From: an uncultured Caryophanales bacterium
Lineage (GTDB): Bacteria; Bacillota_I; Bacilli_A; RF39; UBA660
DNA length: 49,915 nt
Assembly (NCBI GenBank): GCA_946534345.1
Contig: CAMNCL010000007.1
Location: 1 to 49,915 of the forward strand
Direction: 5' to 3'
The notes under the pieces were generated by a model. It made no database searches. It was given only the letters and a program-made list of their open reading frames with translations, and was not told the origin of the DNA. Positions 7,182-49,915 of the stretch are shown one piece after another. Each line of letters starts with the position of its first letter. The stretch's first letter is position 1. The position numbers and the translations under genes are program-made.

Positions 7182-10100
7182 TTAATAATAAACTGTACGT
7201 GATTTTTGCTGACAAGTTTTAGAGTTTTTATAATGTGGGCAATGGTTTTTAGTACTCCAATTCTTTGAGTATCCACTCCATTTAGCACAACCACATTTAC
7301 TACAACTACGTTTTCTACTTGAACAATAAGAACTTTCTGTACAACAGCACATGCTAGCATCTGTATTTACATGATTTCCACAAAAACTTGGAGCTACCGG
7401 ATGCTTGTTACCTTTTCTATAACATGTTGATGCCGTTTTAACACTATATGAACAACTCGTACTCCATGATGCACAAGGTGCTTTTTTACAACTATCACAA
7501 GTCTTGCAAGTCCTCTTTTTATATTCTTTTCGACTATTGACCTCTACTTTACAAGTCATTTCATGTTCAAGCTTATCATTTGCTTTCTTCTTTTGGGTCT
7601 TCTTAATACCCGTTTGTGTTTTAGGACAAGTTTTTACTCCAACTCCTGCAAGTTTACCATATAAATCATCACATGTATATTTTATTGTAACTCCACCTTC
7701 TGTATATCGTTTACTCTTTTTACCTTCACAGTTAGGTACTCTTCCATCAACAAAGACATCCTTTGTTTCTGATGGACAAGTATTTGTATTACCAGCAATA
7801 TCAGCAATACCATATTGAGGGAATTTATAAGTCTGATATACTTTATCTTTGGTACTTACAGTAGCATCTTTCTTAGCAAATTTAAAACTTTTGGTAGAAG
7901 AACTAGTACATCCACTAGATACTTTACCGGTTGCGCTATCTTTTGGATCTGTACATGATCTTTTTATTGTTTTAGTCTTCTTCCACGTTTTAGAATCTCC
8001 TGTTGTAACACATTTTGGACTAGTATGATCAATTCTAATTGTTTGATTTGCAGGACAAGAATTATTAACATTACCAGCCTTATCTTTTATTGATCCACCT
8101 TTACCATTCCCTTCAGCTCCTGCTTGATTAGTATCGATATCAACTAAATAATTATAATGTGAAATACTACTATAATCACAACCACTTCCATAATCAACAT
8201 TTGCCTCAGTACAAACTTGTGTAACAGTAGCAGTTTCATTCTTTCCTAACCATCCAGAGCTTAAAGTTGCGCCTTGTGAATATGTCGTTTTCGCAGAACA
8301 AGCCGGTGGTTTAGTATCAATTTTTATAGTATCAGGGCCAGTATAATCCGAACAGTTTCCTGCTTTATCACAACTTTTATACCTAAATAAATGTCTACCC
8401 TCATCTTTGATTTCATAACCAGCTAAATTTTTAATTTCATTACCAGGATTAGCCTTAGTAGTCGAACCTGTAGCAGCAGGTGCTAAAGTTGCTTCAGTAG
8501 TTGCTTCGGTATTATTCTTACCATTTTGCTTTCTGTAAAAATACTTAAAGCTATCCCAACCTGATATATCTCCACCAACTGCACCACTAACAAATGACTT
8601 AATTGTTTCGGTTGACCAATTACTTACAGCGGTACCAGGGGTATAATTACTTCCACTAGTTGCTTTCTTATATGACACCGTAGGTTTTGCTGGTGCAGTT
8701 CTATCTAGATTAGCAGAAATAATCAAAGTAACTTTGTTATCAGCAGCATCTCTAAGTGTTAACTCTCCACTTCTCATGCCTTCATCTTTAAATCCTACTA
8801 ATATTTTCTCAGTTAATTTGCCACAATTAGCAGTGCCAGATGTACTTGTTATTTTTTTAACATATTCATTTCTATTTGAATAATTAGTATAAGCTGCTCC
8901 ATTAGTTGTAGTTAATCCCGGTGGGTTTGTCTTCCAACTCCAAGTATCCATATGAAGATTATCTGACATTTCAATTTCAAAAACTACTCCATGCGGATAT
9001 TTTTCATTATTCATCCAAGTATTAACAAGATTATTAAATTGATCTACTTTGATTACACCATTTGCTCCAACAGTTTTATCATCAATTGTAATTGACCCTT
9101 GTTTATACATATTGGCACCAGATTTACCACCATTGCTATTTGCTGCATAAGCTCCAGTTAACTTAATAGTTGGAGTTATTTTATCTACATTTACTCTTAC
9201 TCGGCAAAGGTTTGTACTTCCATCCTCCAAAATATCTACTGGAGTAGCCTGACACAAATCAACCGGATTTACAACAGAATTTATTAAATTAACATTTCCA
9301 GCATTATCACTAATTTGAATATAAGCCCATTCAGCAGCTTCTTGTTCATCATTTGGCCATGTTCTTGTGAATGTTGGTCTTATACATCCACTACCATTAC
9401 CATCTTCACAAGTAGCTGTAATAACTCTAGCTAGCGAACTAGTCTTATTGATCCATTCTCCTTCTTTTGCTTGATTACTTATATTAGTACAAGTAGGAGG
9501 AATAGGATCTTTATAACCTTGACTTGCTCCACTGCTTGCACTGCAACCATATTCATTAATTGCTTCAACTTTTATTTTAAAATTAGTTAATCCTGTTATA
9601 TCAACATAATCAGTTATTGGTCTAGTAATAGTAATTTCTGTTTTATTATTACCATTTAATGACCCTGAATTATATACTTCATGTTCACCATGTTCAGAAT
9701 CAGAAGCATATATCGAATAATTATATCCAGAAATAGCTAATTTCTTAGAAGAATCTACTCCACCTGTTATTCTTACATAAACTTTTGCTCTCTTTATATT
9801 AGATAATATTTCAGCATTATTTAGTTCTTTTAAAGTATCATCAGTAAAGTAGGCCTTAAATGTTGGTTTATGATTAGTTGTACATCTACCCTTACAATCC
9901 ATATCAACTTCATAACTATATTCTGTTTTAGTCTTTTTATAAACATTTACACACCCACCTTTGTCTTCCTTCAAATATCTTTTGTCTTTTAAAGTATGGG
10001 CATTTATTACTTTTCTTTCACCTATAGTTTTTGGTAGTTGAGCTTTATTATCTTGCATATAGCTTTCTGCCGATATTAATAAAGACTTTTCGTATTGATT

Positions 10101-47172: not shown

Positions 47173-48246
47173 ATGAATAATGAAGAGAGAATAAATAAGA
47201 TATTAAATGTATTTAAATCAAGTATAGAAAAACATCCAGATTTTGATTTAACAGGTAAACAAGGAATTAATACTATTTATAACTATCTATTAAAACTAGG
47301 AGTAAGCACTACTGACAAAGATATTAACTTACTACAAACAATATCTACTAGTAATCCTAATAATAGTATTATGGGTAATCTATATTATACGTTTACTAAT
47401 AATTCTAAAGTAAATGTTATTCCAGTTAAAGACTTTGTACATTTTGTATCTACAGATGTTGATACTACTAAATTATCTAATCACATAAAAATATATATTC
47501 CACTTGACTCAAAACATATTGAAGAAGGCACAAAACAAATACTAGATTTTATGATTAATAATAAGATTGCATTTGAATCAAAAATAGCTCAAGAAATTAG
47601 ATTTGATGATTTTGTAGTTAGATTAGTTATGCCAGAAGATGCCAAAAAACTATTGGGTTTTATAAATAGTAATCAATATATTCAAGATGGGTTAATAAAA
47701 GCAAATCCATTTGCGATTAATACTGATAATATTGCGGTAATATCTGATGGAGATGCTTCTTTTAATCATGTTGTATCTAGAATAATTGCTCACTATATAG
47801 CTAAAAGAAAAGAAGAAAATAAATTAGATAATATTTCTTTTAAAGATCTATGTAATTATCTAAGTAATGAATATGAAAACTATTTTAATCATTCAAACAA
47901 TAGTGATTTAGCCACTATAAAAGAAAGAGAAGAATGCAAGAAGAAAGATATTCAAGAAATAATTATCTTATTACTATACAAAGATAAACTTACATTTGAT
48001 ACTTACTTAAAAATCTATGAAAAGTTCTCTGATATTCCTAAAGATATAGATAAAACTCTAAAAGAAAAATATCTTAATAGTAATTCAGAAGATATATACA
48101 AAGAATTATCAAGTATTTTAAATAATAAACCTACTGAAGAGACCAATCATGTTCTAAGATTCATGATACAAAGAATTCTTAATGAAAAAGGAATAAATCT
48201 AGAACAATATTTAGAAGAGTTAAATATAAATAATAAAAAGATGTAA
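47173..48246 (+). CDS. HopA1-like protein of unknown function
   Basis: The 357-residue soluble protein has a segment (about 100-200) that resembles the HopA1/DUF5624-like family: KIYIPLDSKHIEEGTKQILDF, SKIAQEIRFDDFVVRLVMPEDAKKLLGFI and KANPFAINTDNIAVISDG. In HopA1 proteins these correspond to the kinase-like core that handles nucleotides or lanthipeptide substrates; here activity is unknown. The N-terminal ~90 and C-terminal ~140 residues are helical and unassigned. No signal peptide. It is monocistronic with its own extended -10 and terminator. Similarity was judged by eye only. Confidence 0.6.
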   Translation: MNNEERINKILNVFKSSIEKHPDFDLTGKQGINTIYNYLLKLGVSTTDKDINLLQTISTSNPNNSIMGNLYYTFTNNSKVNVIPVKDFVHFVSTDVDTTKLSNHIKIYIPLDSKHIEEGTKQILDFMINNKIAFESKIAQEIRFDDFVVRLVMPEDAKKLLGFINSNQYIQDGLIKANPFAINTDNIAVISDGDASFNHVVSRIIAHYIAKRKEENKLDNISFKDLCNYLSNEYENYFNHSNNSDLATIKEREECKKKDIQEIIILLLYKDKLTFDTYLKIYEKFSDIPKDIDKTLKEKYLNSNSEDIYKELSSILNNKPTEETNHVLRFMIQRILNEKGINLEQYLEELNINNKKM

Positions 48247-48262
48247 CTAAGTTACATCTTTT
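48236..48262 (+). terminator. Terminator of the 47173 gene
   Basis: AAAAGATGTAAC-TAA-GTTACATCTTTT: long perfect stem with a T-tail. The TAA stop (48244-48246) is in the stem. Confidence 0.88.
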
Positions 48263-48281
48263 CCTTTTAAATTGGCGTTTC

Positions 48282-48315
48282 TTACCCATAAATTTTAATA
48301 ACTTACTCATAAATT
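48282..48315. repeat. Direct repeat TTACyCATAAATT, two copies
   Basis: TTACCCATAAATT (48282-48294) and TTACTCATAAATT (48303-48315) recur with a period of 21 bases (two helical turns). They lie inside an inverted repeat TTTCTTAC/GTAAGAAA (48278-48285 and 48316-48323). Possible protein-binding sites beside the cassette boundary. No gene is seen in 48263-48405. Confidence 0.55.
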
Positions 48316-48356
48316 GTAAGAAAGTTATTTCTAATTTTCTGACATAGCAGTTTAAG

Positions 48357-48405
48357 CGTATCTAAAATTATCGATTTAAAGTATCGCAATATCTTAATCT
48401 TACGA
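48357..48405. repeat. 49-bp repeat A, flanking the 48406 gene
   Basis: This copy matches 49761-49809 at 43 of 49 positions. It starts CGTATCTAAA and contains a dyad ATCGCAATAT-CTTA-ATCTTACGAT (48383-48406) whose arms agree at 8 of 10 positions. It abuts the stop codon of the 48406 gene. Confidence 0.75.
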
Positions 48406-49644
48406 TTATTTTTGCTTTAAATTTTGTTTATTTATAATTTCATTAATCAATGAAGGTATTTCATCCCAATTATCTGTCTGATACCCAGCATAACTTCCAT
48501 CTTTTCCAAATAGAATTGGAATTACTCCAACTAACTCAGCTTCTTTAATATAACGCAAGTCGTTATCAATTAATATGTCATATTTATGTTCTTCTAAAAA
48601 TTCTTTTTTTGAATGAAAGCCTAAATTCATGTAATTATATTGAATACCATTCAATTCGAAATATTCCACAAGTTTTTTCTTTAATGATGCATATTTATCT
48701 AATGGTCTAGCAGATAATAAATCAACTTGAAAATTATTTTCTAATAACAGTTGTAGTGAATTTTGAACACCAGGCTTTACTTTTCCAAATGCCATTTTTT
48801 CTCTATACAATTTCCAAAATAATGCTAGTTCAGGATCACCCCATACATATTGTTTATTTGGATTAACATCAGGATTATTTTTCAAAAATTCTTGCCAATA
48901 AAATTCTTCTAATTCCTTGGTGCAAAGTAAAGTATCATCTATATCAACTGCAATCTTAATTTTATTATCATTTTCTACTTTAATAGTCTCAAGTCTTTTC
49001 AATTCCTCTTTTACAAATTCCACTGTTTCTCTAATTTGTGATACTATTTGATTGATGTCATATATTTCTGATTCTTCAATTAATTCCCCAGGCATAATAT
49101 CTGTATTAATGTAATTCAGTGTCCCATTTGATCCAAATAAACCATTTAAGTTTAATTCATCAATATTACACTCAAAATTACTCAAATCTTCTCGATTAAT
49201 AGGAAATGCATCTAACTTATAAAGTTTTGCAATTTGTTTTTGCATTTTTAAAGAATCAAAATATCCCCACCAGTTTTCATTATCGTGAAAACTACCATTT
49301 TTAAGTTTAAATCCCTTAACTCCATTTTCAGTTATTTCATATTTTGGGTCAATATTTGTTTTCCAATATTGATCTACAATTAGGTGAACTAAATATCCAA
49401 AATAAAATGGTTTATCTAATTTATTATAATATTTTAAATAAAACTCTTGGTAATCATTTGCTTGACCATCTTTTACTCTAAAATCCCAAAAATGAGTTAA
49501 ATATTTATCCTTTACACCACTTTCAGGTTCTACATTTCTCCAACAATCAGGTGAAACAGTACCAATTCTTAATAATAAGTCATCATATTTTTTATCAGCA
49601 TTTAATTCTTTAACTATTGCTTCATGTATTCTAGCTGAAGGCAT
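48406..49644 (-). CDS. Phospholipase C-like / HAD phosphatase fusion protein
   Basis: The 412-residue protein joins two domains. Residues 1-170 carry the zinc-dependent phospholipase C-like pattern: RIHEAI (His7), SPDCWR, THFWD (His51), GYLVHLIVDQYW (His87, Asp91). A linker helix follows (about 195-225). Residues 228-405 are a HAD phosphatase of the 5'-nucleotidase (NT5C-like) type: AVDIDDTLL (nucleophile Asp234), LLSARP (motif II Ser311) and DILIDND (motif IV acidic residues). No signal peptide. The likely reaction is phosphate-ester hydrolysis; substrate unknown. It lies between 49-bp repeats and is probably mobile or recently inserted. Confidence 0.78.
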   Translation of the reverse strand: MPSARIHEAIVKELNADKKYDDLLLRIGTVSPDCWRNVEPESGVKDKYLTHFWDFRVKDGQANDYQEFYLKYYNKLDKPFYFGYLVHLIVDQYWKTNIDPKYEITENGVKGFKLKNGSFHDNENWWGYFDSLKMQKQIAKLYKLDAFPINREDLSNFECNIDELNLNGLFGSNGTLNYINTDIMPGELIEESEIYDINQIVSQIRETVEFVKEELKRLETIKVENDNKIKIAVDIDDTLLCTKELEEFYWQEFLKNNPDVNPNKQYVWGDPELALFWKLYREKMAFGKVKPGVQNSLQLLLENNFQVDLLSARPLDKYASLKKKLVEYFELNGIQYNYMNLGFHSKKEFLEEHKYDILIDNDLRYIKEAELVGVIPILFGKDGSYAGYQTDNWDEIPSLINEIINKQNLKQK

Positions 49645-49697
49645 ACTATCACATCCCTACATATTCATTATATCATGTTTTTTTCATTTTTAATTAC

Positions 49698-49721
49698 ATC
49701 GTAAGATAACAATATTACGAT
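49698..49721. repeat. 24-bp dyad related to the repeat core
   Basis: ATCGTAAGAT-AACA-ATATTACGAT has arms matching at 9 of 10 positions and the same arm sequence as the dyads inside repeats A and B, but with arms swapped (inverted). It lies just upstream of the 48406 gene start. Confidence 0.6.
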
Positions 49722-49749
49722 TAAATAAGTTTCGAAATTACAAAAAAAA

Positions 49750-49771
49750 CGTATCTAAAACGTATCTAAAC
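49750..49771. repeat. Tandem CGTATCTAAA repeat
   Basis: CGTATCTAAAA and CGTATCTAAAC are adjacent 11-base copies; the second begins repeat B. A single copy begins repeat A at 48357. Confidence 0.6.
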
Positions 49772-49809
49772 TTATTAATTTAATGTATCGTAATATCTTA
49801 ATCTTCCGA
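49761..49809. repeat. 49-bp repeat B
   Basis: Direct copy of repeat A with six mismatches. Its dyad core is ATCGTAATAT-CTTA-ATCTTCCGAG (49787-49810). It lies five bases beyond the stop of the gene at the right edge, as repeat A does for the 48406 gene. Confidence 0.75.
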
Positions 49810-49814
49810 GCCTT

Positions 49815-49915
49815 TTATTTATCAAATTTAAATAATTCAAGAACAATTGAAACTATAAATAGAGTAATACCACTATATAAAAATGTATATCTAATTATAT
49901 TCCAATGTCTATCAT
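49815..49915 (-). CDS. C-terminal end of a membrane protein (partial)
   Basis: An open frame enters from the right edge and ends with TAA at 49817-49815. The 32 visible residues include a hydrophobic segment (YTFLYSGITLFIVSIVLELF) and end KFDK, so it looks like a last transmembrane helix. It is too short to name. Its stop is followed directly by repeat B. Confidence 0.5.
   Translation of the reverse strand, partial: DRHWNIIRYTFLYSGITLFIVSIVLELFKFDK

Follow-up and report, generated by a model that had tools for sequence, protein, structure and literature searches.

What is the 49-bp sequence that recurs behind the genes at the right-hand end of this DNA, and is it connected with how those genes came to lie there? 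The window, 49,915 nucleotides long, is the entire contig C7 of the 1.29-Mb MAG G000 (35 contigs) and ends 106 bp past repeat B, so that the sequence further to the right is unreadable. Repeats A (48357–48405) and B (49761–49809) lie in the same orientation and share 43 of 49 bases; when the whole genome is searched with A, B is recovered at E 6.5e-12, beyond chance. Repeat A directly abuts the stop codon of a minus-strand gene, and B lies 5 bases after the stop codon (49815–49817) of a second minus-strand frame, which runs off the contig end. The three dyads of the initial annotation (48383–48406, 49787–49810 and 49698–49721) and its CGTATCTAAA units (at 48357, 49750 and 49761) are all present. 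The best explanation is that A and B carry putative 3' recombination sites of neighbouring gene cassettes.

The 49-bp repeat had been taken for one site. Its sequence is real, but it is composed of a 22-bp core and 27 bp of another element. The core, TCGNAAGATTAAGATATTNCGA on the gene strand, is a gene-end site (“TAAG core”), and a second core type, TCGNAAAATAGTAATATTNCGA (“AGTA core”), is found upstream of the gene; dyad C of the window is a variant of the latter, differing from the consensus chiefly in the center (TGTT for AGTA). Among 176 TAAG and 76 AGTA cores conservation extends over 22 bp with weak flanks, the central bases being the most constant in a set restricted to cores with a TAAG or AGTA center. 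Read on the minus strand, this end of the window opens with a gene end, followed by core B, two TTTAGATACG units, a T-run and core C; then come TATAAT, the gene for the 412-aa protein, core A, a single TTTAGATACG and a secA-like remnant, with the convergent gene 47173–48246 behind them. Two models, for HAD acid phosphatase and for zinc-dependent phospholipase C, match the 412-aa product weakly, below the Pfam cut-offs. Its gene has one other full-length relative among 39 genomes (62%, in G017, which holds no core at ≤1 mismatch) and broken pieces in G018. The frame cut by the contig end shares its final residues with a gene of G010 that precedes a TAAG core (L101).

Table. Features at the right-hand end of the window, in minus-strand order.
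Feature	Position	Strand	Basis
3' end of preceding cassette gene, truncated at the contig edge	49815..49915	-	sequence; ends ...ELFKFDK
TAAG core B, TCGGAAGATTAAGATATTACGA	49788..49809	-	22-bp conservation
Repeat B outside the core, TACATTAAATTAATAAGTTTAGATACG; resembles the end of a secA-3'-end element	49761..49787	-	locus comparison
Additional CGTATCTAAA unit, tandem to the one in repeat B	49750..49759	+	
Dyad C, AGTA (upstream) core variant; gene strand TCGTAATATTGTTATCTTACGA	49699..49720	-	
TATAAT, probable -10 element of the cassette gene	49667..49672	-	by eye
Cassette gene, 412 aa	48406..49644	-	open reading frame
TAAG core A, TCGTAAGATTAAGATATTGCGA; abuts the stop codon	48384..48405	-	
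Outer part of repeat A with CGTATCTAAA	48357..48383	-	locus comparison
secA-tail-like remnant, reads CYVRKLEITFLQFMSKLLKFMGKKRQFKRKRCN	48250..48356	-	87% identity over 112 bp to L298

The core recurs in this genome and well beyond it. With the four central bases left free, the dyad pattern matches exactly at four places in G000, namely A, B, C and one on contig C28, 12 bp from the contig end, and the reversed control pattern at none, even at ≤1 mismatch. Two further core-like places have two mismatches: one on C15, 32 bp from the contig end, with a flank that matches that of core C, and one on C24, 170 bp from the contig start. Within the genus the pattern occurs at ≤1 mismatch in 26 of 39 genomes, with at least 151 strand hits against 7 for the control (near-palindromic places counted twice), and across the order the TAAG form is found in 33 of 385 genomes and 20 of 117 genera, with zero control hits tabulated. 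Among 84,980 species genomes 95 stretches match exactly; the 80 of these records viewed are mostly ruminant gut MAGs labelled Bacilli, Bacillales or Erysipelotrichaceae, and a few are labelled Clostridia, Clostridium, Ruminococcus or Mycoplasma. The exact TAAG pattern is absent from the IMG/VR viral contigs, plasmids and phages gave no match to queries of just 126 and 61 bases, and Rfam none at the gathering score (7 loci) or at E 0.01 (5 loci). All genomes examined are MAGs, and 20 of the 93 cores listed are no more than 500 bp from a contig start, against 2.2 expected from rounded genome sizes, a crowding as variable or repeated loci would show. The system is widespread among uncultured gut Bacilli and apparently undescribed, no account of it having been found in the literature by title or abstract.

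Around the cores the genes have a recurring build: AGTA core, promoter, gene, stop codon, TAAG core and terminator, sometimes in tandem. A same-strand gene ends at 138 of 162 distinct TAAG cores (those at least 150 bases from the upstream and 122 from the downstream locus end), an opposite-strand gene at only 2 and neither at 22. The stop codon falls within 10 bases of 88 TAAG cores, compared with 64 of 5200 random positions, and 11 genes run into the core and take their stop from it. AGTA–gene–TAAG pairs number 53, in one orientation, and 17 intergenic regions hold both cores; the sequences after AGTA cores look like promoters, and a terminator-like hairpin, judged by eye, usually follows the TAAG core. 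The array of L083 has four genes, each with a TAAG core 4–5 bases past its stop (one core with two mismatches), and in L171 five or six genes are accompanied by seven cores. The cargo is largely unrelated: the 138 core-ending proteins fall into 88 clusters, the largest (14 members) being Xre-type regulators. Pfam matches of 80 representatives, taken from the 86 representative cassette proteins of at least 60 aa, are spread over 79 families, with five CAAX proteases, three GNAT proteins and one representative each for most of the 25 families listed, and a PADLOC search of 80 proteins for defence cargo found 12 models with one member each.

Homology between genomes breaks at both core types. Of 759 block ends, 178 lie within 20 bp of a core, compared with 5–30 for cores displaced by 100–800 bp (14 displacements), the count covering ends more than 60 bp from a locus end, in blocks of at least 250 bp and 70%, after removal of 9 duplicate-locus pairs; because the loci were fetched for holding cores the sample is not random, and the displaced cores serve as its control. 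Blocks are found on both sides of both cores, 70 upstream and 66 downstream of TAAG and 23 and 24 of AGTA. A 1,226-bp block shared by L083 and L084 (95% identical) stops at a core, and a TraX cassette, 95% identical between L089 and L102, is bounded by both cores in L089. Behind native ppdK, G013 and G024 run from the terminator directly into a promoter, and G001 and G026 carry an AGTA core; a core follows native ppdK in 2 of the 17 genomes readable there, their right flanks cut, and is lacking in 15. Among the matches listed for all loci, mostly shared terminators, there was no base-exact pre-insertion site with both flanks. Short copies of the ppdK 3' end also occur apart from the gene (L058, L085, L093, L097, L100, L102 and others), a pattern suggestive of a hot spot at which several elements integrate. 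With the same core behind unrelated genes, in tandem arrays and at homology breaks, the cassette-like order of the initial annotation and its suggested link with gene gain and loss are supported; the repeat is neither a scattered sequence free of such a link nor part of an ordinary IS, IS110 standing at a core in only two loci (L085 and L087).

The outer 27 bp of the repeats, with their CGTATCTAAA units, match sequence found around an integrative element that occupies the secA 3' end. At least five loci (L171, L178, L298, L330 and L077) have, next to cores, sequence with 80–86% identity to the interval between B and C, and in L298 and L330 this sequence comes after a copy of the C-terminal tail of SecA. 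On the other side of its TAAG core L298 again leads into a SecA tail; that side is the counterpart of the window sequence after A and continues into the SecA C-terminal motif. These resemblances make it most likely that the window array is embedded in what remains of a secA-3'-end element; the outer 27 bp of each repeat would then be accounted for. We regard the CGTATCTAAA units as candidate integrase arm sites of that element; such a decamer is unseen in five of the seven intact secA elements (L132–L138), which carry two tyrosine recombinases, with MobV in reach in 5 of the 7. The earlier comparison with a tyrosine-recombinase attachment site survives as core sites with separate arm-like repeats, while the 49-bp unit as a single site does not.

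We consider it probable that single-gene cassettes are moved at the TAAG and AGTA cores by a tyrosine recombinase. The enzyme would recombine cores of like center, TAAG with TAAG and AGTA with AGTA, excising or inserting one gene unit at a time. Many arrays have no recombinase beside them, and none was found next to that of the window, as had been observed at the outset; the enzyme can, on this reading, act in trans. The layout of an integrase beside an array makes Y2 the best single candidate, if a tentative one. Y2, a Xer-related tyrosine recombinase of 427 aa, is found on MobV elements, where an excisionase-like protein and the MobV relaxase are encoded alongside it; it lies 0.9–1.7 kb from a core in 8 loci. 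A TAAG core is found ≈ 0.9 kb upstream of Y2 in L132, L187, L285 and L297, and an AGTA core follows MobV in five of seven loci (L133, L134, L178, L263 and L285; not L132 and L137). L285 presents, within 4.2 kb, the order TAAG–orf–Xis-like–Y2–MobV–AGTA–cassette. Integrative elements of this kind, in which the AGTA core and the cassettes downstream often have a fixed position, would supply the recombination through Y2. Its box II reads YDLRG, with tyrosine at the usual first-histidine position of tyrosine recombinases, and Y2 is truncated in L133 and L297. Judged from frame lengths, a recombinase of its size is lacking in 17 of the 26 core-bearing genus genomes, and for the majority of core-bearing genomes examined Y2 would need either to act in trans or to have acted formerly; G034 and G025, of the same genus, have a Y2-sized recombinase and no core. 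PF00589 has three matches in G000 itself, two of Xer size and a broken one.

In the MobV loci a conserved stretch with TAACACACTA, presumably resembling the MobV (pMV158) oriT, precedes the AGTA core. After MobV, ≈ 250 bp are conserved in L133, L134, L178, L263 and L285, apparently non-coding and with hairpins; this stretch has no Rfam match in L178, L263 and L285.

A large serine recombinase of ≈ 412 aa next to rbgA, with the TAAG core as its crossover site, is an unlikely cassette enzyme, and we set it aside. It has resolvase, recombinase and zinc-ribbon domains, and on seven distinct contigs, as well as in L191, 40–73 bp separate it from a TAAG core, but a core is near it in only 6 of the 18 loci that bear it, no match at E 1e-20 is found in 15 of the 26 core-bearing genus genomes, and the window's genome is without a resolvase-domain match. 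Its weak CcrB similarity and its place beside some arrays recall the Ccr/SCC-like cassettes of large serine recombinases, from which most core-bearing genus genomes differ in having no such enzyme. The rbgA locus (L190–L222) holds this recombinase in several genera, with variable genes upstream of it.

Slightly less probable still is that the genes are immobile and the core is a mobile palindromic repeat, or a 3'-end regulatory element, inserted or kept behind stop codons. In many loci the core comes after the stop codon and before the terminator, which would suit such an element, and the TAAG–spacer–AGTA arrangement could represent one with inverted ends; however, homologous genes are shared up to the cores while their flanks differ, the two core types keep to fixed sides of the gene, and Rfam gave no match in the loci searched.

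Movement of dif-like modules by the host XerC/XerD is improbable. Xer-sized tyrosine recombinases are present in every genus genome, and G001, G008, G024 and G028 have just two PF00589 matches of that size each. Like the dif (pdif) modules of Acinetobacter plasmids, our cassettes are genes bracketed by two short sites, alternating and inverted-like (PMC13141974), and would be moved in trans by a recombinase encoded elsewhere. The cores, however, are unlike dif (ACTTCCTATAATTGATATTATGTTAACT, identical in 13 of 13 relatives read, and so the relatives' rather than G000's own), and within the searched data they occur on chromosomes and integrative elements, not on plasmids. In genus genomes (the same 13 relatives) dif sits near the Xer gene.

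An integron with divergent attC sites, the kind of system to which the initial annotation likened the array, we discard as the most improbable reading. A hairpin spacer between two simple sites, arrays of alternating genes and sites (L083 and L171) and integrase-free arrays invite it, but the integron integrase model TIGR02249 (cut-off 265) gives Y1 and Y2 58.3 and 55 bits, the variable arm bases N4/N19, which should pair in a single-stranded attC, are complementary in 13 of 53 pairs from one cassette and 7 of 17 from one intergenic region (≈ 0.34 expected from base counts), and the cassettes seem to carry their own promoters. According to PMC9024848, integrons are extremely rare in Firmicutes.

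The cassettes moved by a tyrosine recombinase, which we continue to prefer, would work like integron gene cassettes without being built like them. The likeness, to CALIN arrays as well, lies in single genes with a recombination site, in tandem, with unrelated cargo and often no integrase nearby; the difference lies in the lack of any IntI-class integrase found, in the non-complementary arms, in a second core type upstream, and in an apparent promoter and terminator for each cassette. Several arrays are housed in integrative mobilizable elements of the MobV kind, which sit at gene 3' ends and contain Int, an Xis-like protein, MobV and secA tails, but those move as a block, whereas the cassettes occur inside and outside them with cores of their own. 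There is a fair chance that the system is a class of its own beside the known ones. The fuller proposal, which we offer only as a possibility, is a third cassette class beside integrons and dif modules, of promoter–gene–terminator units with two dedicated 22-bp cores, moved by Y2, with MobV elements as travelling platforms that trade genes among small-genome gut Bacilli. A separate cassette system in 20 genera of one order would explain single-gene exchange in small-genome uncultured gut bacteria, and it would provide a 22-bp handle for mobile-gene discovery in ruminant microbiomes and recombinases that can be tested.

Two minor observations concern genes beside the cores or the recombinases. 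On contig C35 of G000 (L026, 326–1036 and 1488–2993) a broken tyrosine recombinase adjoins a pilin-like protein, the C-terminus of which, at a guess, looks like a variable domain. The IS110-type transposase genes at cores occupy 6394–7563 of L085, with 7661–7682, and 252–1463 of L087; in L085 the AGTA core is broken beside IS110, which recalls the IS1111-attC insertions of integrons.
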